Part shown: one piece after another, positions 5,478 to 46,699 of the stretch
How positions within the stretch are numbered: the stretch's first letter is position 1
How the letters are laid out: every line of letters starts with the position of its first letter
Assembly: GCA_028685185.1 (NCBI GenBank)
Contig: JAQUEK010000003.1
Span: 62,001 to 126,000 of the forward strand
Source: Candidatus Altimarinota bacterium
GTDB lineage: Bacteria > Patescibacteriota > Gracilibacteria > BD1-5 > UBA2023
Length of the DNA stretch: 64,000 nt
Direction of reading: 5' to 3'
Made by a program: the position numbers and the translations under genes
Notes under the pieces: model-generated
Told to the model about the DNA's origin: nothing
The model's input: the letters and a program-made list of their open reading frames with translations, nothing else
Databases searched by the model: none

Positions 5478-6077
5478 ATGTTAAAATTAATCAGTTTTCT
5501 AGTAATCCTGTTTTATGCAAATTCTTGTTTCGCGTGGTGCTATTTGAATGATGATAATGTCAGAATTATCGGCGTTTGGGAACCTGGACATTGTACTGAT
5601 GATTTCGAGGCTTATGGGTTTGGGGTGGCAATTAATTATGATGAAAATTACGCATATATAGGAGAAGCAAAAAAAAGCATGCCTAACGGGAAAGGAATAA
5701 TGGTCTATTATAAAAGTTTTAAAAAAAAAATAATTAGAAAGAGATATATTGGTGAATTCAAAAACAGTCGAATAATAACTGGTAAAGTGGAATTTGAGGA
5801 TGGTTCAAGTTTTGAAGGATCTTTTGACAAGAATCAAAATCCATATATTGGTTTGGGAAAATTTGCCAACGGTGAGTCTCATTATGGTAAATGGAGAGTA
5901 AATAATGACCAAGATGTTGTTCCAATTGATGATGATTCTTTTCTTACGCTGTTAGGAGGAACAACAATTGCAATGGTGTTTGTTGCTGCTACTGGAATAA
6001 TTTTAGTTGGTGCTGCAGCAATAGCTGCTGCATCTTCTTCTCCAGAGCTACTTTTAATAGTTTTAATACCAAAATAA
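5478..6077 (+). CDS. Secreted MORN-repeat-like protein in the standard code
   Basis: 199 residues. A signal peptide ends near CFA at residue 19. The middle contains MORN-like units (YIGEAKKSMPNGKG, YIGEFKNSRIITGKVEFEDG, GLGKFANGESHYGKW), and the C-terminus has a hydrophobic Ala/Gly-rich segment (about 157-185) that looks membrane-inserting. MORN units often act in membrane or lipid contact. Unlike its neighbours, it has no in-frame TGA at all; every glycine is GGA, GGT, GGG or GGC, and a good Shine-Dalgarno (AAAGGAG) sits 8 bases before the ATG. Terminators flank it on both sides, so it is an isolated unit. Codon use and ribosome binding site point to transfer from a standard-code donor. Confidence 0.85.
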   Translation: MLKLISFLVILFYANSCFAWCYLNDDNVRIIGVWEPGHCTDDFEAYGFGVAINYDENYAYIGEAKKSMPNGKGIMVYYKSFKKKIIRKRYIGEFKNSRIITGKVEFEDGSSFEGSFDKNQNPYIGLGKFANGESHYGKWRVNNDQDVVPIDDDSFLTLLGGTTIAMVFVAATGIILVGAAAIAAASSSPELLLIVLIPK

Positions 6078-6281: not shown

Positions 6282-8126
6282 ATGTCAGATAAGAACATGT
6301 TAGCAGGTATAGAAAACATACCAACTCAGAATGAAGCAGCCAAAATAGAGGCAATCCGTTCTGTTTTAGAAAAAATAGCTAATGTTAAGGATATCGAAAA
6401 AGAGGAGTTTAAGGATGTGAAGTCAAAGCAAGACCTTAAAAATGCTCTTACAAATATAATAAATAAGATTTCGTTTTGACATATCAAGCCTAGTGAGATT
6501 GCATGACCTATTGATGTTGTTGTTGAGACAATATGGAAATTGTTTGAATGAGCCTGAAATGCATGAAAAACTTTTTGGGATTGGATAAAGGAGAATTTCA
6601 GTGCTTTCTTGAATATCTTCAACGATAATTTCGGTACGCCTAATCAGCTTGCTGTAAGGTCTTTTGTAAATACAGTTTATGGCGTAGGTTATCAGATACA
6701 GTTCATAAGATGAAAATACCATGTAGTATCGCCGAACTGAACTTTGATATTAGAGACTGAAATGAAAGCTATAAACTGAAATGAGGAATGAACCTGAGCT
6801 AAGATAAGTAGCCGTAAAAAAGTATTGGAATCTATTCTTATGGAAAGATCGCTTACAGAAGGTTGAGATACAAAACTTAGGGATATCCTTGTTTATTCGG
6901 GTATAAGTCCTACTGATAAGAATAAGATAGATAAATTGGAACCAAAAGATCTTGCAAATGCATATTTGAGATATGCACAAAAATGAGAAAAGACAGCTAA
7001 ATTGATCCCTTGAGTAACTTCTGATGAAGTTAGAAAAATGAAAGATCTTCCACAAATACAAAAAGATTTCATACTTATACAATTAGAACCATCTTCTTCA
7101 TGAAATATGACAGAAGTTGACATGTGACCTTTTAAAAGAGCAATAGAAGAACATAAGAAAACTTTATTTGCAACAACAAGTAACCTTGCAGCGTTAAAAG
7201 ATATCACAAGCGAATGACTTTGAAGAAGTGCAGATATGCTCAAACATCCTAAGGAAATAATGAAATATGTTCAATGACCTGAATTGGTTGTTTTATTTAT
7301 AGCATTCATGGCTACAATGGTGTTTGATACGACTTGAAAAAGAAAAGAGATTTGGCAAACTGCGATTCTTGGATGATCAGCTTTCGTTATAGCTAATATG
7401 CTGACAAAATATTATAACAAGGATAAGGAAAAATGAGTACTTTATGCAATCTGAGCTTGAGCAGAAAAATGATCTAAAAAATCTCAAAGGAAAATTGAGA
7501 ATATAGAAAAGATGGCAGAAAAAATGAGTATGACACCAGAAAATCTTAGAGTATTCCTTGATATTACTGATATGCCAGCTGAAAAGATACTTAAAGGTGT
7601 TAAGATAGATAAGGAATGAGATTTAGCTTTTGAGGATTATGAAAATCTTTTTGATAAATGACAGAGAGATAGATTTGATCAAGCTTTCTGAGAATGAAAA
7701 TGAAAAATTAAGGTTCTTGAATTCCTTAAAAGTTTCTTAAAGGAAGCAGGAGGGAATGATATCGAGAAAACAAGAAAGAATCTTATCAAGAAATATCCTT
7801 TGGAAGATAATTTCATATTCTGACAGGTTTTCAGCTATGAACTATGAATAATTAAAAATGATAGGGATGCAAAAAATAAAGCTGAATCTAAAAAATCTGA
7901 TAAGGAAATCTTCGTAGAAAGTGCCACTATTGTTGTGGAACATTATGAATGAACTGGAAAAATATGAAGCATGGTCATTTCTAAAGAGATTATATTAAAT
8001 ACTATAAAAAATGAGAATATGAGTAATACAGATAAGATCTTATATTTTAAAGGATTCAAATGTACAAGTGAGAAAGATAAGAAAATAATTGAAGAGATAG
8101 TTAAAGAATTACAAAAACTAAAATAA
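6282..8126 (+). CDS. Large unknown protein 1 of a four-gene operon
   Basis: 614 residues, no signal peptide. The N-terminal third is helical and mixed; a hydrophobic pair around residues 335-375 (VVLFIAFMATMVF, then AILGGSAFVIANML after a short basic loop) should form two membrane helices. The C-terminal region is soluble and rich in Lys and Glu. About 40 TGA codons serve as glycine, which is why only fragments show under the standard code. It starts a run of four same-strand genes with gaps of 15-69 bases, so they are probably co-transcribed. I recognise no domain. The shared design (long soluble arms plus a central hydrophobic segment) suggests a membrane-associated complex. Confidence 0.8.
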
Positions 8127-8149
8127 ATAATATATAATTTTTAAGTCAT

Positions 8150-10927
8150 ATGGCAGGAGAAACAGGTATAGACAGATCTATACAAGAAAATAAAAATAAT
8201 ATTTCAGAGCTTCAAGCTAATTCAATCCAGAATAATGATATCACTGAATATCAATGAATTTTAGAACAGATAGCTGAAATGCTTTCACAGGATAAAGATA
8301 ACAAGGAAAATTCAGGGGCTCTTCTGGAATTATCAAAAAAGATAGCTGAAACTAATCCTATTTTAAGCGATCAGATAACTCAAATGATTGCAAGTAAGAA
8401 AACAACCTGAGAGATAAATCCTGCAGTTATCGCAAAAGTCCGTGAACAGATAGATGCCGTAAAAAAAGCAAAGGATGAATATATAAAAAGAAAGGCAGAA
8501 TATATAAAATGAGCAAAAAGCTGAAAATTTGAAAAAGTAGCCTGATTTGACTCAAGTCTTACAGAAGAATCCTTAATGGCAAGCCTAAACACGAATTTAT
8601 CAAATACAAGAGGTTCTGTAGAAGAACTATTCAAAGATAATGAATATGTCGACAGGATTTTTAAATTGGAAATCCCTTGAACCAAATTATATTACAAATG
8701 AAAAAGTTTGATTCCTTGAAATGAAGTTTCATGAACAGGTGATGCAAAATCGGATGTAATAAATTCAAGCAAGACATATCTGAATGAAATGGTTGATTTT
8801 CTTGAGAAATCAGCCCAGATAAAGGACTGAGTCTTGAAATTACCAGGTTGGTGGCCAGGATGAAAACATACTTTTAATAGCTATAATGAAAAATTGTTCT
8901 ATATAAACAAGATTCTGGAGGCGATGAATGAGTGAATGCAGGAACAGAACAGATGAATAATAAGCTGAATTGCTCACACTTGAGTCGATCTTCTATGATA
9001 TGCTGCTATACCGGTTTGAGTTACACTTATAGTTTTTTATGCATGAAAGAAGATATTACCCAGGATTCCTATCTTATGACCTTTGACATGAGTTGCTTCT
9101 GAATGAATCTGACTTGTAAGGGATAAGATCAAAAAATCCAGAGCATCAAGCGAAGAAAATGCTATCAATAACAGACCACATTATACTATAGAAGAAGTGG
9201 AAGGTTTGGTGGAGGGAACAAGATGAGAGTTGAAATCAAGATTGAATTCAACTTCTAGAAAAAAGAAGATATCTGATGCTGAATTTTCAACCAGAAATTG
9301 ATTGCTTGATAAATTCCAAGAGGATTTCGCTCGTTGAAAATTCAGGAAAATGTCAAAAGAAAAGATTGATGAAAGATTGAGAAGGATATTCGATTGAGAA
9401 AAATGAATAGTATCAACTGGTATTAATGTAGCAAAAACAGTTTCTGTAACAAGAGCAGTTTCTCCAAGAAACATTCCAATAGATCCACTTGATTCTAGAA
9501 TGAAAAGAATCTGAAAGAAACTAGCTAATGCATGATTATCTACAATAAGATGATGAAAAACTGTTGTAGGCACTTGAGTTATGGCATGACTTGAAGTATG
9601 AAGAACTCCAGTAAGTGCAATAAGAGAGAAAACAAGCACTTATGATAAAAAAAGGACGGCGGAATTCAAAAGCAAGGTTGCATCTTATTCTACAGAAGCA
9701 TTCGATCATAAATTCGAGTTCTCTCAAGATATCAAACCTATAATAGAAGCAATTGATAGCTTAAGCGGAGAATGAAGGGAACTGGAATGAGTTTTGAAAT
9801 TACATGAAAAAGTTAGTGCTATTAATCTTGAAATTGGAACAAATAAAGATGATATAACAAGAATAGAATGAGAAGTCAGAGCAAAAGTTCATGAAATAGA
9901 AATTAAGAAACAAGAGATAAATAGGTTTGAAAAATCAAGAACCAGCCTTGTCAATCCAGCTATTGAAAATGAAATTACAGCTAAAACTAGTGAAATAGAA
10001 TCTAAAAATATTGAAATAGAATCTAAAATATTAGAATTAGAAAAAAGCAAACAAGATTTAGATATTAAAAAACAAGAATTAACTAGTTTAAAAAAATCAA
10101 AAACAAGTACAGTTGATCCTATTTTGGATTCAAAAATAATAACAGTAGAACAAGAAATTGAGAATATAAAATTAAATATTAAAACAAAAAATTCAGAAAT
10201 TACATTAAAAAATTTAGAAAAAGAATGATTAGTAAATTTTACTAAAAGTCTTATAAATTCAACTACTGATTGACAGATTAATGTAAAAAATCTTGAAATA
10301 CAAAATAAATGAATAGAAATCACAACCATCGATTCACAGATATCAAGATTGAATCGTGAACTGACAGAGATTAATCTTAATATCACATCACAAAGCAATG
10401 CTCTTATAACAACAACCAACAAAGCTGCAAAAACTTGAATCAATAATCAGATAACTTTGTTAAAAGGAGAAAAAAGCAGATTAGAGTTGGATATCGAGGA
10501 AAAAACAACTAAAAAGGAAGAAAAATTAACTGAAAAGTCTGAACTTGAAAATAAACTAGAAGAACTGAAAAATAATAAATCAATTTCCACTGAGGAAAAA
10601 GTAGCTGAGTTAAAGAAACAACAAACGGTATTGGAAGGTGAATTGGTTAAATTGAAAGATGATCTAGATGCCCATAAAGCAGAAAAAACTGAGCTGAAAG
10701 AAAAATTAAAGGAAGCTAAAACTAAAGTCGAATGAGCTAAATTCAATACTATGGCAGAAACTCAAATTAAAGATGCATTAGCAAGAAAAACTACAGATCT
10801 TAATACGAAATTGGGTGAATTGGAAGTGAAAAAAGGAATAACAGTAAATACCCTTAGTAGATCAATAGATGAGATCTCAATAAAGGATATATTTACAAGA
10901 GTGGCTAAGAAAGCAGTCAGAAAATAA
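8150..10927 (+). CDS. Large unknown protein 2, membrane segment plus long coiled coil
   Basis: 925 residues. The N-terminal 250 residues are helical and polar. A hydrophobic stretch near residues 275-300 (LLGYAAIPVGVTLIVFYAG) is a likely membrane helix, with a second weaker one just after. From about residue 555 to the end the chain is almost wholly coiled coil, with repeated IEIESKIIE/LEIEKS-type heptads. That section has diverged repeats and GGN-poor, Lys/Glu/Ile-rich composition. The architecture resembles tethering or SMC-like arms, but no ATPase motif is present. Second in the operon; no family recognised. Confidence 0.8.
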
Positions 10928-10942
10928 TGTTAATATCATAAA

Positions 10943-13186
10943 ATGGATAAATTTGAATCTGCACAAAATAATAGGATAGATTTCAAGAAATTAGTAACTG
11001 TAAGTAAGGAGGTTTCATATCCATTCGAATTCAAGAAAGAGGATTGATTTGATATCAGGACAGAATTACTTGCTGTTCAGGTTTGTGAATATCTGTCACT
11101 TATTTCAAAATCACAAAAAATCAAAGATAAGCAATTTTTAAGCGATTATATTGAGGATTATTCAGTTAATGTAATCAAAAATCTTATCATTTCCTATAAA
11201 TTGAAAGTTGAAGAAATCAGAAAAGTATCTTTTAAGATGTGAGTCTTATCAGTGGATTTTTATGATGGCTCAAAAAAATCTTTCAATATCTTACCAGAAA
11301 ACTCCTCTAAAAGCCAAAAGGAGAATGAAAAGGCATTTTTAAAGAAGAATTCGAAATTAGCTTTGGAAAATCTTAGGAATGATTCAAATATCGAATCGTA
11401 TCCGGATCTATGAATGGCAGTATCATATGCTTTAGCTCCATGAACTTGACTTTACTATGTAAGCAAGATAGTTTTCAAGAAAGCAGATTGAAAGAAATGA
11501 GTGATAAAAATAAAAGATTCACCAAAATTATCAAAAATTGAACATAGCAAAAATCTTTTAAAATTACTGAAAAAGAATTGATTGGAATACGATGCTGCGC
11601 ATTGAACAGTTGAAAGCGCTTCGAAGACAATTCTGAGAAAAACCATAGAGATAGCAAAGAGAATAAGATATGAAGACATAAAGAAAACTCATCCAGAAGT
11701 TACCAGACAGGAATTCGAAGCATGAAAGGATGGCTTCATAAAAAAAGCAAGAAAGTGAATCAAGAATTTCGGTGAAAAGTATCAATGAGCCATATCGAGC
11801 ATAGAAAGCAAGATATTCATGCCGATATTCTTCAGGGAATATTATAAGAACAGCCAAGACCTCAGCTCAATCTGAAAATCATTTGCAGAAATGTGATTGT
11901 TTCACCTATGAGCAAAAGTCTGAGCAGCTGCAGCACCTTGATTCCTGAAGATGCCAGTTTCACTTATTTCATGAGCATTATTTACAGTTGCATGAGAAGC
12001 TTATTGATGAGCCATACAATTAGATAAGCAATTTTGGAGAGTTTTTCCTGAAAGGGAAGATTTTTTCGAGAAGACTTGATCTGATAGATGAAAAAGCTTC
12101 TTTACGCATGCGATTACCATGGGCGCAGCCCATGATGTCTTGGATAAGGTCTGATGAAAATGAGATGTTGATATCGGAATACCCTGAACAAAGTGATGAT
12201 TCTATGTTAAGAATTGAGATTTCACGATTCCAGAAATAGATTTCATCAAATCTTCGATAGATCTGAGTACGGATCCTAGAGCTTATATGAGCAATGCCAA
12301 AGCAAGAGGTAAGGAATTTTGGAATAATAAGGTTGATAATTACGGAAAATGGCTTAAATCAGAAGTTTTAAAATTACTTGATGCATACAATCTATGAAAA
12401 TTCCCATTCTGAAAAAATAAGAAAGCCAATTATGCATTATTTGAAAAAAGGCTGGACTCGATATTGAAATGATCATGAGATTTCAACTGATTCGAAGATA
12501 TCATCGAATCCATAAGAAATACGATAATCGATAAGGATAAGAAGACTATACATATATGAGATAAAAATAGGATTATGCTTATAATCGATAATCAGCTGAG
12601 TCTGGTTAAGATCGATGATTTCTTCATAAGCGAAGGCAAGAAAAATAATATAAAAGAATGAAGAAATATCAGCGATATAATACATTGACCATCAAAAGAG
12701 ACACTTAAGATGATAAGGCTTGAAAACCTGGAATTGGCTAAAATCAGGAAAATATATCCAGAATCCGCAGGGTTGATCAAGGATATAAAAGTTGAAGATA
12801 TGTTCAGGAAATTCGAAAATATCATGGACCTGATAAAATCTGACCCGAAAAAACAGAAGCTTCTTGACAATATGATAGAAAGATTATTGAAACACAAGGA
12901 TATATTGCAGACTAGGGAAGACAAGAGATTATATAGTGAAATGCTGAACTCCAAACATATGAAGCCAAAAACATATAGAGTAATGCTTGATGAATTGAAT
13001 GTGACAGGATTTAAAGTAAAAAAATGACCCATATCCACGATTTCCTGCCATCCTGCAATAAAAATCCAGCAATCCGCATGAGATGAATTTGTGATTTTAC
13101 TTAATATGATAGTCGAATATAAAAGGCAAAGGGAATTTCTGGATAATCTTTCAAAAACATGATATTGAACCGAATGGAGAAAATAA
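10943..13186 (+). CDS. Large unknown protein 3 of the operon
   Basis: 747 residues beginning 15 bases after the previous stop. Mixed alpha/beta N-terminal region, then an Ala/Gly-rich hydrophobic segment at about 315-350 (AKVGAAAAPGFLKMPVSLIS) likely to contact the membrane. The C-terminal half is charged and helical. Sequence around residues 375-410 (THAITMGAAHDVLDKVGGKGD) looks conserved, but I cannot name a family. TGA encodes most glycines. Tight spacing to both neighbours indicates shared transcription and probably a shared complex. Confidence 0.8.
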
Positions 13187-13255
13187 TGTGCTGGATATTA
13201 GACAGAAGATCAAATATATGATATGATAAGAACAATTTATAATTAAATATCTATT

Positions 13256-14449
13256 ATGGCAGAGACACCTAAAAATTGAGAACAATGAAACGATAATACA
13301 CTTTCCGGAACTATATTATGATCTATGAGTAGATTTTTATGAGATGCAAAAGGTTATGTGGAGTCTAAAAAGAAGTCAAAAGGTGAAGTCGTAAAAGCTC
13401 CAGAAGCTGCAAAACCGGATTGAAAGCAGGAGACTGCAGCTGTTGCTGCAGATACCCAACAGAAGACCGAACAATTGAAGACCACTGTTTCGAGGGATGC
13501 TTTTTTAAGTAAATTGGATAAGCTTTATAATGAATGATTGACTAAGATAACCTGATTAACCTATCCTGATGCCATCAAAGATAAGGCAAAAGCTGATCTG
13601 GCAGAGAAATATAAATCAATCAAGGCTAAAGTTGAAGCATGTAATTCAGATGCTGTATTAAAAAACAATAAAGACATTCTAAGTGCTCTGAATTCTTGGA
13701 TTACAGAGCTTCAGAATATAAACATGCCTGATATAACATGAGAAGCTGTTGCAGGATTAGGTCTATTGAAGGCTGATATCTCATGAGCACAAGCAACTCC
13801 TTCATCAGGTTCCGAAGCCCCTGCTCAAGCGACCGCAGAAGCACCGAAAGATTGAGAAGCTGAAACCAAGGCAGCATCAGCTGAAAGAAAGACTAAGTTC
13901 ATGGAAACGCTCAAATGATATTGATTGCCTCCTATGGTTGCATGAATCATAGCATTCCTGTTCTGATCAATGGGTCATTTCGACAAGAAGGATTCATTTA
14001 TAGCTAAAGCGATAGATTTCATATCAAATCCTGTGGACTGATTGAAGTCGATGGTATGAATGAACTGAGGTGCGGAATCCTTGAATAATTGATTAAAAAT
14101 ATTAGCAAAAGAAACGGTTAAAAAAGGTGAAATAGTAAAAGATGATGTCAAAAAGACTGTTAATTACAAAAATGATAGGGTTGCAATCGCACTTAAAGAT
14201 TGAAAAGTTGAAAGTGTCTTGATCTGAGGGGTTCCTTATAATCTGAAATTAAAGGATGTAAAAAATTCTGCTTTATCTCAAGTCAGTTTCGTTCAGAATG
14301 ATAAATGAGATTTCATCAAATTTTGAAATAAGGAGATCGATATATTGGCTTTCACAGCATCTATTCAGACTTGAAGTCTAGAAAGCAACTATATATTAGA
14401 AAAGGAATTCAGTGCTTGAGATGATTTGAGATTAGATAAGATTGCCTAA
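13256..14449 (+). CDS. Unknown protein 4 of the operon, one membrane helix
   Basis: 397 residues. Low-complexity Ala/Pro/Glu/Lys linkers (residues 30-75 and 180-215) separate a small helical domain from a single hydrophobic segment near 223-240 (LPPMVAGIIAFLFGSMG). The C-terminal part is beta-rich with a segment (VPYNLKLKDVKNSALSQVSF) that could form a small sandwich. Last gene of the four-gene operon; its last 18 bases overlap the end of the convergent nucleotidyltransferase gene. No family recognised. Confidence 0.78.
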
Positions 14450-38769: not shown

Positions 38770-38802
38770 TAATAACCCATCCTTAAAGGATGGGTTATTA
38801 TT
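38768..38802. terminator. Bidirectional terminator between tgt and the DUF4116 gene
   Basis: AATAATAACCCATCCTT and its perfect complement around a single base; it overlaps the stop codons of both convergent genes. Confidence 0.8.
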
Positions 38803-40693
38803 ATTTCATATACTTGTTTATTAAAGTATAGTTCGGATGTTTCCTTGTCTTGTTTATGAAATCCTTTGAAAATCATTGCCTTTTCAAATACCAGACAATC
38901 GTTTTCATTCATGCTCATACAGGCATCTTAAACATGAATAGATCTATATTATCAAGCAATTTTCAGACCACTGAAGTTTTCTTATGTGTTATTGCAAGGC
39001 TCAGTGCAGTATAATCTCAGAGTCAGATCTGATTCACATTTATATTTTCCTGATCCAATAATGTCAGAGCATGATTTTCATAATCTTGTTCAGATGATTC
39101 TATCAGTCTCATAAGCAGATTATATCAGCTTTCATCAATTACATTCAGATCTCACGTGCTTATTATCTTTTGTACAAGATTTTTGATTTTTTCATTCTGA
39201 CTATTTAAAAGTAAGGCTATAGTTGAATTAAGGTTTCATTTAACAATACCTGCAATGCAATTATTTTCCATTCATGCTCATCTAAATCTTGAAATACTCT
39301 CAGGATTCTTATCAATCAGTATCCTCATGAACTCAGGGTTGTTCTTTAATTGTTTTGGAAAGAATACAAGCAGTCTGCTGTCAGTTATTGCAAGATCGAG
39401 AAGATATCTAATATTGCTTGAGATATATGGCTTATTTAGAATATTTCATGAAGTTATATTTATCCAATGAATAGCAACTTCTTTAAAATTTTCAAAGATC
39501 ATTCTTATATAGCTATCAGGTAATCTGAGAATCTGCTCGCTATCCATATTTATCACTTGATTTAATATATTTTTCTCATAAATCCTAAGAACTTCCGAAA
39601 TGAACTCGGGACTATTTATCATTTCTGGATTTGATATCCTATTCAATGCGAATAATATATTTTTTGAAACTAAAAATGCCAATATATTTATATTATACTT
39701 CATGTCAGGATTCAAGATGTCATATTTTCCTATATCCTTGCCTAATATATGTATCATGAACTCGACATTGTTCTTTATCGCATTATCAAATAGGCTGTAA
39801 ACGAGAATATTCGAGTCAATTGCAGATTTCACAATTTCTTTTGAATATTTCAGATAATCCCTTGAAATATATCAATAAGCAAGTCAATTTTGCTTCACAG
39901 CTTCCAAAACAATCTCGGGATCCTGTTTCAGGGAATCGCATGCAAATTGTATAGCAAGTCAATTCTGCTTCACAGCGAGCATGACCATGGATTTATCGCT
40001 TCTTGCATTCTTCAATTTTTCCTCTCAAAGCGATATTCAATCATTTGATAATATATATTCGCAAGTTCTTTTCAGTTCATTGTACAGCATCATAAATCTT
40101 CCATCAGCTTTTTTTTCTGGAGATAGGAATCCGAAAGCTAAAAAATTATTATTCAATGCAGCAAAAATGATTTCATCATTATTTTTGGCTTCAGTTCAAG
40201 CAAATTGCATAGCCATTCAGTTCTGTTTCACAGCAGCGAATACAAAAGCAATATCATTTCTGAATTCCTCATATCTTTCATTTCAAAGAAGCATTCAATC
40301 ATTGTTCAGATTTTCCAAAAGAAAACCTCTTACGACTGCAGAATTCAAATGGTCCATCTGTTGCTTGATCTGCATTGAATCTTTTATGAAATCGATTTTC
40401 CTTATATTCAAACTTATATTTCACTCTTGAATCAATATATTATCAGAAAATATTCTGATATCTTCGCATTTTCTTGAAAAAACCAGTTTTCATCATACTA
40501 TTATCCTAGCATCTCAACCTATAAAGGTTCAGTTTGTGGTTTTATTTCCATGATCCGCCAAAATATATATCATGGTTTTGACGTTATTGACTTGGGATTC
40601 CAAGATATAAAGTCATTTTATCTCATTTTGAATCTCATCTGCATTTAATTCCTGATTTCTGTTTTCCGGATCTGCAGGTTTCATATTTTCCAT
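38801..40693 (-). CDS. DUF4116 plus ankyrin-repeat protein
   Basis: 630 residues, cytoplasmic by appearance. Residues about 165-275 hold DUF4116-type repeats (FAAVKQNGMAMQFAG, MLAVKQNGLAIQFAC, VLEAVKQNGLAYGYI). The C-terminal part holds ankyrin-like units (SGYNLLMRLIESSEQDYENHALTLLD; GDYTALSLAITHKKTSVVGKLLDN). Both are protein-protein interaction modules. TGA encodes many glycines. A copy of the 20-bp element shared with the JAMM gene and the lipoprotein operon lies 46 bases before its start. It sits directly downstream of the E1-like gene, which makes a role in the same system plausible, as an adaptor or target. That is inference. Confidence 0.82.
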
Positions 40694-40721
40694 AATTTTC
40701 AATTAAATTATAAAGCAGGTT

Positions 40722-40824: not shown

Positions 40825-41664
40825 TTATTGTCATTGATTACAAATTATGCAATCTTTTTGTTTTTCAAGCATGATGAGCATAGATGAAAGATGTTTATCT
40901 ATGACATTCGCAATACCAAAAAGTGACCATAAAATCCAATTCGTGCCAACAGGAGGAAGAGAATGTTCTACATCTGCAAGTAAGACATCAAGCGCTTTCC
41001 GTGCTGCTATGGAACATAGGAATGATTGATCAATCCCGATTCCAGGTGCAGCACTTACATCTCTTGCTGATGAGCAATCTTTTTTATCTGTGGTCTCAGA
41101 ATATTTTTTCAGAAAATCCTTTCTTTCTCCATGGTCTGCAAGGCAGCAGTAGCATGCAAAATCTGGAATATAAGTGAATATTTCTCCTCCTGCACCTTTT
41201 TCAAACATGCTTACGAATATGGCTGGTTTTCTTAATTCGATGCAAACCTCGTTTATGAAATATCTCGATGAATCTGTATCAGTGGCACATACCACAACAT
41301 CTGACTCATGAATCAAATTATAGAATAAAGTTCTGTTGTCGAAAATATTCCAATCATAAGCGTTTATTGAACTTACTTGATTTCCGGCATATTCATCAAG
41401 AAGTTCCTTTACAGCAAAAGCTTTGTTATTTCCAATAAACCTGCTTCCGCAGATGTGCCTTACAAGATTTCCTGACTCGAGAATATCATTGTCGATGAGA
41501 TTCTGCTTTACTATTCCTGAGCGCAGAAGATGCAGTGCAATCTCTCCTCCTCCGCCAAGCCCGATTACCGTGACCTTTTTTTCTGATAAAGAAGTCTTGA
41601 TGAGGGTATTAATCCGTGGATTTTCCGTTCCTGTTTCATAAGCTGATTTTTTTGAAGCTTCCAT
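40825..41664 (-). CDS. E1-like ThiF-family adenylyltransferase in the standard code
   Basis: 277 residues to a TGA at 40831; in the host code two more residues (Gly-Gln) precede TAA at 40825. Nucleotide-binding GLGGGG (35-40), the IDNDILESGNLVRH block with Arg69, Lys81/Lys86, and Asp129 or Asp131 in ATDTD form the adenylation site. CYCC (Cys171, Cys174) and CIIC (Cys272, Cys275) form the structural zinc site found in ThiF/MoeB and E1 enzymes. Cys197 is a possible thioester cysteine. It should activate a C-terminal glycine of a partner with ATP. No in-frame TGA occurs and all 19 or so glycines are GGN; an AAAGGAG Shine-Dalgarno precedes the start. E2 and JAMM genes are close by. Confidence 0.87.
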
Positions 41665-41808: not shown

Positions 41809-44529
41809 CTATCTTACTATTTTCAGATTCACAGGGAAGATATCACTATCGGAATACTGTAGGGTTCAATCCTTCCTTAATACTTTCCAATAGCTCATTA
41901 TATAATCATCGGTTCATCAGAAATCAGCTCATCTTATTTCAATTGCGTTCGGCAGTAATCTTCAGCACCTGGATATATAATCGTTTTTTCTGACTACTAT
42001 GGAAAATGTTGTTACAGGAAGAGGTAGATAATGATTGAAGAATTTTGTTTCTCAATGAGGTCATACATCTCAATGGCTCGGAGAAAACAGACTTCACGGA
42101 TGCTTATGCCAATTGAACGCGAATACTTTTCAAGACATCTTCTCAGGATTTCATGCAGAAAGCCTTATAAGGTATCTCTGTTCGATTTCATCGAAATCAC
42201 CCTCGAATGATTTCTGGAAATTCCTGTTATTGAATTGATTAGGGTCATTTATATCTCAGATGATATGAAAGCTTCATCAGGTGGATATATATTCTTTGTT
42301 CAATATTGGATTTTGGATGTTTTTCATCCTCAGGACTCAATCATTCATATCATAGATGCTCTGATACCAATATCCTCACGTCTCAAGTCAATTGGCTTTT
42401 ATATAGGGCTCGTTTAATTGTTTATATATCTTTGGAATATCATGAATTGATATTTCAGCGGTATGAAAATTTTCCTTGTACTCCTTATTTTTGATATCAT
42501 CTCTTTTTATTAGTGCCTCAATGAATAATTTCTCTATCTTTTCAAAAACCGTTTGGCAATATCTGTTTTTGTCCATATTTCCATTGGAAATGACATCTGA
42601 AGAAGAAAACTTACAGATTCAATGATCAAGCCAATATATATTGAAGACTTCATTTCAATCTTTTACATCCAAGCTTATGGCAAATTCACCTCCTATGGTT
42701 TTTTTTGTCATCAGAAGCTTGCATGCAGTTTCAGAAATCTCAAAATCTCATTGTCTAATTCTAAATCAGAATCTTTGGCTGACAGTGCTTATGAAATAAT
42801 TTATGCTTTCTGCAAAATTTAGTTTATTGTCCGTTGCATTTTTATCTTTTTCAATGTTAGGGTCTTCAGATTTGTCTCTTTTGCTGATTTGCTTATCAAT
42901 CGGAACTTCTGATGGATCATCAGGCAGACTTTTGATCGGAACAGATTCAGTCTGATTTACCGGATCAGAAGGAATATCCTTATATGTGATAAGCTTTTGA
43001 TCTTTCGTGGTATTATTGATATCTGTAACATTGATAATACATGGTGCATTCGATTTCTTTTTTTTCTGGGATCTTTCAATTATGGATTTAACGGAAAATA
43101 TTCATCATAACAATATTAAAATCCGTTTTCATATTTCCAATATCTTCGATTTCCTATTTTTATAGCCATTTCTTATATTCATATATACATTTTCATGAGG
43201 TTTTTCCATTATAAATGTATCTGAATTTGATATAGGTTTTATTACGGAAAATCCCTTATCTGCCAATTCAGCATTTATTTCCTTTATAATATCTTCATTA
43301 TTTTTACTATTAAATCCTGAACTTTTGTTTTGGTTTGTTTTCTTTATGCTTGCAATATTCAGGTTATCATTGCTTTTTTCTGCAATCGCATTTTTTCATA
43401 TCAGCAATCATCATAGTATCATCGCTGTTCATATGGCAACTTTTTTTAGGGTTCATAATATGTTTGAAAGACGATTTTCCTGAATCTCATGTTTAGTGAT
43501 TTCCGGAATCTTTTCATGTATCATTGTTACTGGATTCATCTCTGAAATAATCTGATTTCAGGGAATAGCAGGAGCGTTTCTATATATTTCTTCTGCTATC
43601 TTGGATATTTTCTCTTCACTGAATTTTCTTGCTGCAACTTCAAGATTCTCTCAATTTTTTATATATCAAAGGTTTTCTGCGGCTTTCATAACTTTTCATT
43701 GCGGATCATGGACAAGCTCTGATACGCTTGCATTCATAGAAATAAGCTTTTCGCTTTCATTTAATTGTATTCAATCCCTAAGTCATTCAACTCTTCTTAT
43801 TGTCTGTTCCAATGTTATATATCACTGATTAGGGTGATCATTTCTTATATCGTTGAATATTTCCTTCAAGGCATCGGAATCAATCCTTTTGACCGATGAG
43901 ATATTTGGATCCGATGATAATATATTCCCAACATTTTCTTTCACTGCTGCTGTAGATTCTGATATTCAAGTGCCAGAAATTGCTTCAGCAACCTTTGTTC
44001 ATCATATAATTCATAAGGTGACCCCGACTCATATCGATATGGTTTTTTTTGCAAATCCTTTGGTCTTACTTCTTCTCTTTGCTTTATCTATCATTGCAAT
44101 TATCTCTTCTTTTGACTTATTTCAGATTTCTTCATATATCGCCTTAAGCTCATTTTTAAGATCATCCTTATTTTGGGTTTCCTTGATTTTCATTAAAATC
44201 CTATCGATCGAACCTTTTGTTATATTCTTGTCTATGATATCGAATATAGCTTCAGATGCGATATATCATCATGCTGCAGAAATAATTGCTCTTCATGCAA
44301 GAAGCCCTCATGCCAACACAAACGCTCATGAAGCTGTTGCAGCTATCGCTCATGCTGATAGTGCCAGTCCTCATGCCAACCTTCAATATCTGTTTTTGTT
44401 CCATAGGTTCTTGAAGCTTCCATAATAGGATGAAAATATAGATTTATCCTTATTTTCTCAAATCATCTTATTTAAGAAATCGTTTATTATTTCAATTTTC
44501 TCATAGTCTGCAGTATTATTTTTTTCCAT
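41809..44529 (-). CDS. Membrane protein with C-terminal JAMM metalloprotease domain
   Basis: 906 residues, recoded. Hydrophobic Gly/Ala-rich segments at about 51-78 and 80-98 and further ones near 170, 380 and 460 suggest several membrane passes. A Ser/Thr/Lys linker leads to a C-terminal domain (about 590-906). There HKH (808-810), seven residues, Ser818, two residues, Asp821 reproduce H-x-H-x7-S-x2-D, the JAMM/MPN+ zinc signature; Glu615 in IGGEFAIS is the likely catalytic glutamate. JAMM enzymes remove ubiquitin-like tags. The gap between Glu and HKH is about 190 residues, much longer than usual, so there is an insertion. An internal ATG at 42576 is not a separate start because the frame is open above it. 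E1-like gene downstream, E2-like gene upstream. Confidence 0.8.
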
Positions 44530-44594: not shown

Positions 44595-44614
44595 CCTAAG
44601 AAAAATAAATAAAA

Positions 44615-44639
44615 AAAGCCATCGCAATGCGATGGCTTT
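44615..44639 (-). terminator. Terminator of the E2-containing operon
   Basis: AAAGCCATCGCA / TGCGATGGCTTT with a minus-strand T7. It begins 14 bases after the TGA stop of the 82-residue gene, which supports TGA as its real stop. Confidence 0.88.
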
Positions 44640-44653
44640 CAAATAAACAAAAT

Positions 44654-44902
44654 TCAGAAACTGCCTTGAAGGTCTTTTGCCGTTTGCAGCTTATTGCTGA
44701 TATTAGGATCAATCTGCCTTATCTGATCCATTTCAGATGAGTTTGAACCGAGTATCTGTCCGCCTTGTGTTATGTTCACATCAGCAGTCCCTTCTGTAAA
44801 GGGTTTAAGAACAGATTCTGTTCCGGTGATATCTGCACGGTTGCGGTTCTCAGAGCTACCATATTGCTGCCTGAGATCATCGATTGTCAGAAGTGTTGTC
44901 AT
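44654..44902 (-). CDS. 82-residue protein of the E2 operon, ends in TGA
   Basis: Starts at an ATG behind GGAGAG, and ends at a TGA just before a terminator. The sequence is polar (IDDLRQQYGSSENRNRAD...) and seems mostly disordered, with helical ends; its last residues are QGSF, so no Gly-Gly tail. All glycines are GGN. If the host reads this TGA as glycine, the frame runs on through the terminator to a TAA at 44516, giving 128 residues with a hydrophobic tail. It lies 27 bases after the E2-like gene. It might be a substrate or partner; I do not see a ubiquitin fold. Confidence 0.65.
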   Translation of the reverse strand: MTTLLTIDDLRQQYGSSENRNRADITGTESVLKPFTEGTADVNITQGGQILGSNSSEMDQIRQIDPNISNKLQTAKDLQGSF

Positions 44903-44928: not shown

Positions 44929-45384
44929 TTATGCTTCTGGGAGCAGCCATATGCCTTTTTCTTTTTTGTATTCGTATGCATGCAGCCATAATGCCATGTA
45001 ATTGATGATGGTGACGACTGAATAGTTCAACTTCCATCCTTCGCCGATAACATCATCTGGTTTCATTACACAAAGCTTGATTCCTACATCACGGAATGTT
45101 CCATAATTATGGAAATTATGCATGCCGTATGTATTGCAGAAATCCACAACATCTCTATCTGTGATTATCGGAGAGGGAGGTGAGTACGGATAATTGCTAG
45201 GATAATATGCCCTTGCAAGGTAGACATTATTGCTTCTTGTTATGAGCGGACCTTCGACGAAAAGCTCGCGATTGTCGATATGAAATCCGAATAACGGGTA
45301 TGATGCTTTAAGTTGTTCTGCCTCAAATATGAGGCGTTTTCCATACTTTTCAGGATTTTGGCTTACCCAATCTATATCTTTCAT
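44929..45384 (-). CDS. E2/UBC-like ubiquitin-conjugating-type protein
   Basis: 151 residues. The pattern YYPSNYPYSPPSPII (61-74) matches the UBC core motif YPxxYPxxPP, and a beta-sheet precedes it. His89-Asn90 and His92-Asn93 stand where the HPN motif lies, followed by KLCVM with Cys105 at the place of the active-site cysteine, then GEGW and a long C-terminal helix. E2 proteins accept a ubiquitin-like tag from E1 on this cysteine. It has no in-frame TGA, stops with TAA, and has an AGGAGG ribosome binding site six bases before its ATG. With the E1- and JAMM-like genes it forms a conjugation triad. Confidence 0.8.
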   Translation of the reverse strand: MKDIDWVSQNPEKYGKRLIFEAEQLKASYPLFGFHIDNRELFVEGPLITRSNNVYLARAYYPSNYPYSPPSPIITDRDVVDFCNTYGMHNFHNYGTFRDVGIKLCVMKPDDVIGEGWKLNYSVVTIINYMALWLHAYEYKKEKGIWLLPEA

Positions 45385-45407: not shown

Positions 45408-46457
45408 TTAAAGTAAATCCACAGGAACTCTTCCGTCGATATTTGAACCTATGTATGTATTATCTATCCTACCTCCTCTTTCATCAGTTGATGTCTGATG
45501 ATTTATCCTTCCTTCAGGAATATTTGAACTTCTGGATTGAACCGGACGATTATTTCTGGCTGTATGCCGATTATTTCTTCCTATGCCTGAATTCTGCTGT
45601 ATGCTTCGATTAACAGTATTATTGACTGTCTGTTGAATTTCTGCAACCGGTTCAAATCTTAGGCTTTCAGGTGAAATCGAATTTCCGAATCTGTAAGGTT
45701 CGTTGTTTGCGGCATTGTTAATCGAATCCCTTAGATTTTCTATTCCAGAATCGACCCTGACATAGGCTTTTTTTGTATTACGTCTTTGTTTAAGCCTGTT
45801 TCTGAAATTTTTCGAAAATCTGTACAATATGCCAGGTGATGACCCGATCAAAGAGGAAAGGATTTTGTAGAATATTATCCTTCCGATAAACAATAGGAAA
45901 ATGAAAAGTATAGTTGTTATCATAATCTCCCTGTTATTATTTTCGACAAAACTTAGAGGAGTATTCTTAACTTCGGCTTTAGAGTCAACTGGTTCAGTCA
46001 TGATTTTTTCTGTCCTCAGTACTTGCATATCAGCCACTATCGGAAGAGGAGAAGGGGGCTCAACTTTTTTTTCGGTATTATTTTTGGGAAATTCCTCAAC
46101 CTCTCTTTCGGTTTGATTTAGGGTAGACTGATTTATATCAATTTTTGCAGTATCATTATCATTTTCCAATTTTTCTGTCTCTTTTTTGATATTCTCCATT
46201 AGCCAGTTCAGATTTACGAGATGCTTTTCGATTTCCTGCAATCTTTTCAGATCTTTCTGAGGATTTTCTGAATTGTAGATATTCCTATAGATATTCTCCG
46301 CTTCATTTTTCAGCTGACTCTTCCGGATTTCCATACTTTGGTAAGTCTTATTCAATCCTTCAAGATGGTCAGCGAAACAATTCTCTCCTGAAAATGAAAA
46401 GATGACAAATGAAAACAGGAGAATAAAAAAATATTTTCCACAGATATTCATATTCAT
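45408..46457 (-). CDS. Secreted/membrane coiled-coil protein of the E2 operon
   Basis: 349 residues. A signal peptide (about 1-30) precedes a Glu/Lys/Asn-rich coiled-coil region (30-115), then a membrane helix near 179-200 (IMITTILFIFLLFIGRIIFY) and a basic, low-complexity C-terminal tail rich in Arg, Asn and Ser (RNRLKQRRNTKK; RNNRHTARNNRPVQSR). Thus the N-terminal arm is outside and the tail inside. Every glycine is GGN and no in-frame TGA occurs. AGGAGG lies five bases before the start. It is 23 bases upstream of the E2-like gene. No family recognised. Confidence 0.75.
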   Translation of the reverse strand: MNMNICGKYFFILLFSFVIFSFSGENCFADHLEGLNKTYQSMEIRKSQLKNEAENIYRNIYNSENPQKDLKRLQEIEKHLVNLNWLMENIKKETEKLENDNDTAKIDINQSTLNQTEREVEEFPKNNTEKKVEPPSPLPIVADMQVLRTEKIMTEPVDSKAEVKNTPLSFVENNNREIMITTILFIFLLFIGRIIFYKILSSLIGSSPGILYRFSKNFRNRLKQRRNTKKAYVRVDSGIENLRDSINNAANNEPYRFGNSISPESLRFEPVAEIQQTVNNTVNRSIQQNSGIGRNNRHTARNNRPVQSRSSNIPEGRINHQTSTDERGGRIDNTYIGSNIDGRVPVDLL

Positions 46458-46477: not shown

Positions 46478-46645
46478 TTATTTTGATCTTATGGATTTGA
46501 TGATTTCATACGCTTTTAGCTTTGCACCGCTTTTTTCTAATCTATCCTTGTAATAGGTGTCAGATTTTTTCGGATGATATGCGTGCCTTGAAGTTCCACA
46601 TCCTGAAATGATGAAACCAATAATGATGATCATTATCATTTTCAT
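46478..46645 (-). CDS. Small lipoprotein of the E2 operon
   Basis: 55 residues from the ATG at 46645, chosen because AAAGGAG sits at the correct distance before it; a longer reading from 46681 would run through this site. The hydrophobic MKMIMIIIIGFIISGCG ends in a lipobox (ISGC), so Cys16 or so is probably lipidated. The remaining 40 residues are basic and helical. No in-frame TGA. It is the first gene of the operon leading to the E2-like protein. Confidence 0.7.
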   Translation of the reverse strand: MKMIMIIIIGFIISGCGTSRHAYHPKKSDTYYKDRLEKSGAKLKAYEIIKSIRSK

Positions 46646-46699
46646 AAGCTGCTCCTTTCTTTTTATCATGTTAATGAACATTTTTTATTTTTGTGATTG

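Follow-up and report, generated by a model that had tools for sequence, protein, structure and literature searches.

A probable membrane-tethered JAMM deconjugase of a ubiquitin-like conjugation operon in Gracilibacteria, in a gene cluster split between two genetic codes

In a 64,000-nucleotide stretch of a Candidatus Altimarinota genome (the window; contig JAQUEK010000003.1), one long gene appears to join a JAMM protease signature to a membrane-type N-terminal module, raising the question of whether it encodes a membrane-tethered deconjugase and, if so, which pathway it would serve. A reading of the sequence alone had proposed a single open frame here, and this is the case on the minus strand only when TGA is read as glycine (code 25), at 51 codons. 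TGA=Gly is the right reading for the 1.17 Mb host genome, in which 1036 of 1415 aligned TGA positions lie opposite glycine in relatives and a search with an RF2 model returned only an RF1-level match. No tRNA-Gly(UCA) turned up in the ~344 kb sampled, which carries no weight because this is only ~30% of the genome. A second code conflict, CGA/CGG read as tryptophan, was ruled out, as CGR codons align with arginine in the host.

By sequence and structural model, the C-terminal part of the protein is a JAMM/MPN fold with the MPN+ catalytic set. The zinc motif, HKHPGSLFSPSHGD (residues 808-821), matches the JAMM pattern HxHx7SxxD exactly, as the sequence-only reading had stated, and the full set E ... 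HxHx7-10SxxD is present as E716, H808, H810, S818 and D821. In an alignment of eight homologues from seven genomes (23-34% identity), H808, K809, H810, P811, P817, S818 and D821 are invariant, and the HKH motif, whose loss would have counted against the earlier reading, is thus fully conserved; E716, G719 of the ETGG motif, W721 and S724 are invariant too, with EVLG replacing ETGG in two genomes. The same alignment relocates the catalytic glutamate. The residue nominated earlier, Glu615, falls in a column reading E,E,E,E,E,T,Q,L, so that three of the eight homologues lack it, and Glu716 is the invariant alternative. With Glu716 in this place the distance to H808 is 92 residues, and the large insertion once deduced from a spacing of about 190 residues disappears. 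In AfJAMM, AMSH, Rpn11 and CSN5 the glutamate and histidine are 45-62 residues apart, so the somewhat longer spacing here perhaps reflects an insertion of 30-45 residues.

An AlphaFold model built with seven sequences has good confidence for most of residues 588-906 and low confidence in the N-terminal two thirds. When residues 679-906 were compared by VIA-align, many MPN+ proteins matched with Z scores of 10.5-12.5 over ~145-170 residues, including Rpn11 and CSN5 (Z ~12), BRCC36, the archaeal Rpn11 homologue of Caldiarchaeum, the bacterial complex 8tyx (Z 11.1) and BubCD residues 2-155 (Z 11). Foldseek gave probabilities of 0.99-1.00 to Sst2 and BubCD; Sst2 reached 1.00 with an E-value of only 3e-3, weak E-values being usual for one domain within a long model. 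The Pfam model Prok-JAB (PF14464) gave no match to the protein at E<=1 with hmmscan, and none in a genome search. Zinc-dependent isopeptidase catalysis would be expected of such a domain. That it is instead catalytically dead and kept as a scaffold is highly improbable: nothing specific suggests it, and the metal ligands, the serine and the glutamate are all invariant across very divergent homologues.

The N-terminal two thirds are less clear. Gly/Ala-rich hydrophobic segments, noticed in the original reading, are indeed present at residues ~55-86, 364-382 and 466-484, and they are only moderately hydrophobic (Kyte-Doolittle maxima 1.6-1.8); membrane insertion of the module is likely on these sequence features. 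Residues 1-316 also include a conserved stretch (Table 1). Between the module and the JAMM domain come a linker modelled with low confidence and a small domain built on a beta-sheet (residues 588-678; five strands, then helix 654-687, by DSSP of the AlphaFold model). No fold could be assigned to the module, the model being poor there, and this gives no sign that its fold is new. Six of the seven genomes retain the fusion to JAMM; in the seventh, G211, the protein has one hydrophobic segment and the JAMM domain, and lacks the N-terminal third. Thus, of the suggestion that a JAMM protease is fused to a membrane module, the protease and the fusion stand on fold, invariant residues and recurrence, and the membrane nature of the module is only probable; we regard the protein as real and probably membrane-tethered. 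A proposed resemblance to the large proteins at 6.3-14.4 kb found no sequence support: BLASTP against those at 6.3-13.2 kb (the fourth, at 13.3-14.4 kb, was left out) gave a best score of 25 bits, outside the Gly/Ala segments, so the likeness is compositional at most.

Table 1. Coordinates in the window of the JAMM gene, its parts and the neighbouring genes.
Feature	Position	Strand	Details
JAMM gene	41809..44529	minus	906 aa, code 25, 51 TGA=Gly + 16 GGN, stop TAG
N-terminal helical/hydrophobic module, residues 1-316	43582..44529	minus	Gly/Ala-rich ~50-97; DIRxDHPxQxYxTLEQxxRRVEGL
Hydrophobic segments at residues 364-382 and 466-484, with connecting linker	43078..43440	minus	low-confidence part of model
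Beta-sheet and long-helix domain, residues 588-678	42496..42768	minus	precedes JAMM; holds non-conserved Glu615; DSSP
JAMM/MPN catalytic domain, residues 679-906	41812..42495	minus	AlphaFold pLDDT mostly 75-93; VIA-align
Codon of predicted catalytic Glu716 (ETGG motif)	42382..42384	minus	invariant in 8 homologues
Zinc motif His808-Lys-His810 ... Ser818-x-x-Asp821	42067..42108	minus	H808, K809, H810, P811, P817, S818, D821 invariant
E1-like ThiF-fold activating enzyme	40825..41664	minus	277 aa to TGA (40831-40833), then CAA TAA; no earlier TGA
Hairpin, then T-run	44614..44640	minus	just 3' of small gene's TGA; folding z-score -4.8
Small partner protein	44654..44902	minus	82 aa, conserved C-terminus ends SF, stop TGA
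E2-like conjugating enzyme	44929..45384	minus	151 aa, Cys in LCVM, no TGA
Signal peptide + single-TM protein	45408..46457	minus	349 aa, polar tail ends GRVPVDLL, no TGA; candidate conjugated protein
Putative lipoprotein	46478..46681	minus	67 aa, lipobox-like IISGC, no TGA
DUF4116 + ankyrin-like protein	38801..40702	minus	TGA-rich, adjoins E1; Pfam DUF4116 5.7e-36

The term deconjugase is now well supported by genes for E1- and E2-like enzymes that adjoin the JAMM gene and that the earlier reading had not mentioned. The E1 matches Pfam ThiF (4.9e-24), the PADLOC E1-E2 model (3.2e-25) and, in the PDB, MoeB, UBA5 and Cap2; its nucleotide motif GLGGGG is conserved in the alignment, and an adenylation domain is present. 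The E2 matches the PADLOC E2 model (2.3e-6), with PDB 8hsb as its best solved relative (7.6e-5), and gave no match to Pfam UBC; the catalytic cysteine of its LCV motif is found in 8 of 10 sequences, the exceptions being the second copies carried by two genomes. These second E2-like genes (L020:8699-9145 and L021:9448-9927) resemble UEV-type pseudo-E2s and lie beside an active E2. Between E2 and JAMM sits the small gene; in G197 and G198 the E1 carries a homologue of it as an N-terminal fusion. Its model shows helices and a short hairpin (pLDDT 65) and has no PDB match, and a beta-grasp Ubl identity is not supported by a model of such low confidence with no fold match. The hairpin downstream of the gene has a similar counterpart at the same place in four relatives (folding z-scores -5.6, -4.6, -1.9 and -6.2). 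On the far side of E1, the DUF4116/ankyrin-like gene was not seen in relatives' loci, and its association with the operon is not established.

The components travel together. In class-wide searches, full-length relatives of E2 and JAMM occur in the same 7 of 353 genomes, all of one family; beyond these, the E2 search gave one weak partial match and the JAMM search three matches to the N-terminal segment only. In these genomes they cluster with the E1, small, lipoprotein and TM genes (on two contigs in one fragmented genome), the locus set being JAMM, TM protein, lipoprotein (with MORN repeats in some loci), signal-peptide TM protein, E2, small protein and E1; E1 and JAMM are in separate genes in the loci read. 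The window differs in layout, with JAMM moved between the small gene and E1. Pairwise divergences of E1 and JAMM are strongly correlated (r=0.90, Mantel p=0.001) and track rpoC only weakly in a six-genome comparison leaving out G208; this weak tracking indicates that the locus seems to move between species. Neither relatives of E1, E2 and JAMM in viral contigs nor relatives of E2 in plasmids were found. Variants of the locus include a gene of G207 that joins a MORN-like region to a TM protein with a VPDS tail (L019:10204-11277) and a second, shorter JAMM paralogue in the same genome (L019:1812-3881), whose closest relative is L063:1-2439 in G208.

Which protein is conjugated is a guess, because no beta-grasp Ubl was recognised in the operon, nor a CD-NTase among the neighbours scanned at 38.8-49.0 kb. 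A precedent comes from type II CBASS, in which a conserved C-terminus marked cGAS as the Cap2 substrate (PMC10097602). On this analogy the first candidate is the signal-peptide TM protein, since its extreme C-terminus is conserved in seven of eight homologues with otherwise divergent tails (GRVPVDLL, GEVPDSLT, GEVPDSYT, GDVPDSFH, GVVPVDLR, GAIPSDFR and GVIPEDIV; that of G216 differs). Against it, the last residue is not Gly/Ala, unlike in ubiquitin or cGAS. The TM protein tail is thus the most likely conjugated end and the small protein a less likely one. We propose that E1 would adenylate the partner's C-terminus, either the tail G-x-[VI]-P-x-[DS]-[LFYI]-x or the SF end of the small protein, and hand the partner to the E2 cysteine; that E2 would link it to a target at the inner membrane face, through a lysine or another nucleophile on that target; and that JAMM, held at the same membrane through its Gly/Ala-rich module, would cut the bond and so restrain or reset the system.

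That JAMM acts as the deconjugating half of such a membrane-associated operon, by this mechanism, is in our judgement likely. Counting against it are the absence of a recognised Ubl or CD-NTase and of a Prok-JAB match, the moderate hydrophobicity and low model confidence of the N-terminal module, and its absence from G211. JAMM proteins that process sulfur-carrier precursors exist, and the membrane partners in the operon could serve as substrates, so JAMM might not be an isopeptidase for E1/E2 products at all: it might process a membrane partner or the small protein, or be an enzyme of the sulfur-carrier type. We find this distinctly unlikely, given the constant company of E1 and E2, the lack of a recognised ThiS/MoaD-like carrier and the absence of a conserved C-terminal extension on the small protein. 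The membrane-tethered deconjugase first imagined from the sequence therefore survives and gains a pathway, while its key-residue and insertion claims fall.

Among known systems, type II CBASS shares E1, E2 and a JAMM deconjugase in one operon (Cap2, an E1-E2 protein, and Cap3, a JAB/JAMM protein) and the idea that a conserved C-terminus of its own can make a protein that lacks the ubiquitin fold a substrate for conjugation (PMC10097602). In contrast, the operon in the window lacks a CD-NTase or CBASS effector, encodes E1 and E2 in separate genes, and has a JAMM protein with a 600-residue membrane-type module together with membrane and lipoprotein partners. The deubiquitinase of the bacterial Ubl-deubiquitinase complex 8tyx shares the JAMM fold, whereas no beta-grasp Ubl was recognised in the window operon. 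A similar comparison applies to the Bub proteins BubCD and BubB (PDB 9ea4 and 9eae), known here by PDB titles and the fold match. BubCD presumably carries JAMM and E1 in one chain, as its PDB entry also suggests; in the window JAMM is not fused to E1, no Ubl is recognised, the fusion is to a membrane-type module and the host uses code 25. Simpler cassettes occur in Chloroflexi, E2-E1-JAMM with ETGG and HxHP in L090 and E1-JAMM in L089. Among the matches listed, they have the nearest E1 outside the family (31%), together with E2 and a small JAMM carrying ETGG and HxHP...SxxD; unlike the window protein, their JAMM is 267-270 aa without an N-terminal module, in the standard code and with no membrane partners seen. 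More broadly, standard-code E1/E2/JAMM cassettes were noted in Chloroflexi, Synergistaceae and Anaerolineales (L089, L090, L091 and L094), with an HxH motif and E1 in one frame, a BubCD-like layout, in L091 and L094.

The window system is most likely an envelope-associated variant of bacterial E1-E2-JAMM systems; comparison with type II CBASS and similar operons makes defence or envelope stress its probable role. Such a system would bring bacterial ubiquitin-like conjugation to the envelope of ultra-small cells, where the deconjugase would be held at the membrane.

The locus offers, in addition, a natural example of a single pathway whose genes are written for two genetic codes. Across the seven genomes, none of the 536 glycine codons in conjugation-side genes is TGA, compared with 122 of 444 in JAMM (7-76% of glycines per genome, the window JAMM reaching the full host level at 76%). 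The TGA share expected from conserved genes lies between 2% and 8% in five genomes, and is 27% in G211 and 78% in the window genome. Depletion of TGA from the conjugation genes is beyond doubt in G211 (p 1e-11) and the window genome (p 2e-36) and supported in sum in the other five; the split appears in all seven (Fisher p 0.044 to 3e-20 each; combined depletion p ~4e-46). In low-TGA genomes JAMM even exceeds its own genome's TGA share (33% vs 4.5% in G197; combined p 1e-15). Weaker conservation of the gene may be all that this excess reflects: TGA is almost missing from rpoB and rpoC in those genomes, and in G216 it stands at 24% in a large surface-like neighbour.

TGA also ends ~14 of 45 conjugation genes, in genomes where RF2 was not found (six genomes; the seventh, the 79% complete G208, gave no match). 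These include at least four of five genes in G198, several in G207 and G208, the small gene in G211 and the window, and the window E1, where TAA follows two codons later; all conjugation genes of G216 and G197 end in TAA. TGA is rare at background gene ends in low-TGA genomes, a count that is uninformative for the window genome, where sense TGA is common near gene ends. For the small gene, relatives stop at the same place with TAA or TAG and a stable hairpin follows immediately, so in evolutionary terms its TGA marks the gene end; a read-through product would carry a tail of 45 residues. With glycine codons set aside, codon use departs mildly from the typical in the window conjugation genes (pooled percentile 0.0075) and is typical in JAMM.

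The simplest account of the split is that standard-code bacteria or mobile elements have supplied the conjugation genes recently and repeatedly, and that only JAMM is a long-standing resident with host TGA. Import accommodates the absence of TGA-coded glycine alongside TGA stops in genomes without RF2, the atypical codon use, the apparent mobility of the locus and the imported look of other TGA-free genes such as a chemoreceptor. Phages of Gracilibacteria that lack in-frame TGA and are compatible with code 11 have been reported (PMC10746230), and like the window they have genes without TGA that either code can read, in a TGA=Gly setting; in the window, however, the boundary lies within a single cluster of chromosomal genes. 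Against import, no standard-code relative closer than 31% was among the matches listed in the contig scan, and viral contigs and plasmids yielded nothing. Moreover, E1 and JAMM diverged in step, seemingly from a shared history, yet JAMM stands at 76% TGA and the E genes at none, which is hard to square with one new and one adapted partner. We give import about an even chance.

Alternatively, the split could be functional: JAMM needs UGA=Gly and the conjugation genes do not, some even needing UGA as a stop, so that loss of UGA-Gly decoding would remove the JAMM brake while the conjugation machinery keeps running. A phage could cause such loss by bringing RF2 or by destroying tRNA-Gly(UCA), and so could transfer of the DNA to a host with the standard code. 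Presence of the split in every genome, the JAMM excess in low-TGA genomes and the TGA end of the small gene next to its hairpin are in line with a functional role, which we nevertheless consider rather unlikely: it needs a trigger or RF2 source, none being known here, the JAMM enrichment may only mirror weaker conservation, and the G216 and G197 genes all end in TAA. Selection for readability without UGA-Gly would fit both the lack of a close donor and the in-step divergence. In its full form, conjugation gated by the genetic code, with the operon sensing a UGA change and switching on, the idea is unlikely. The remaining probability goes to mixtures and unknowns. Whether this is gene traffic across the code barrier or a control device matters for understanding gene exchange between recoded organisms and those with the standard code, and the defence of the former against the latter.

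Few TGA-free genes were seen outside the operon in the 344 kb sampled. They include a chemoreceptor (L073:11854-13482, MCPsignal 1.6e-49), an unknown protein of 248 aa (L070:3675-4421) and another of 282 aa (L065:11237-12085), all probably recent imports. Within the window, a secreted MORN-like protein of 199 aa (5478-6077, plus strand; no TGA, 19 GGN glycines, no Pfam match) directly precedes the TGA-rich large unknown proteins at 6282-14449. Finally, the family that includes G197, G198, G207, G208, G211, G216 and G000 uses TGA for 2% to 78% of glycines with no RF2 detected, a series that offers natural material for following how far a codon reassignment has progressed.
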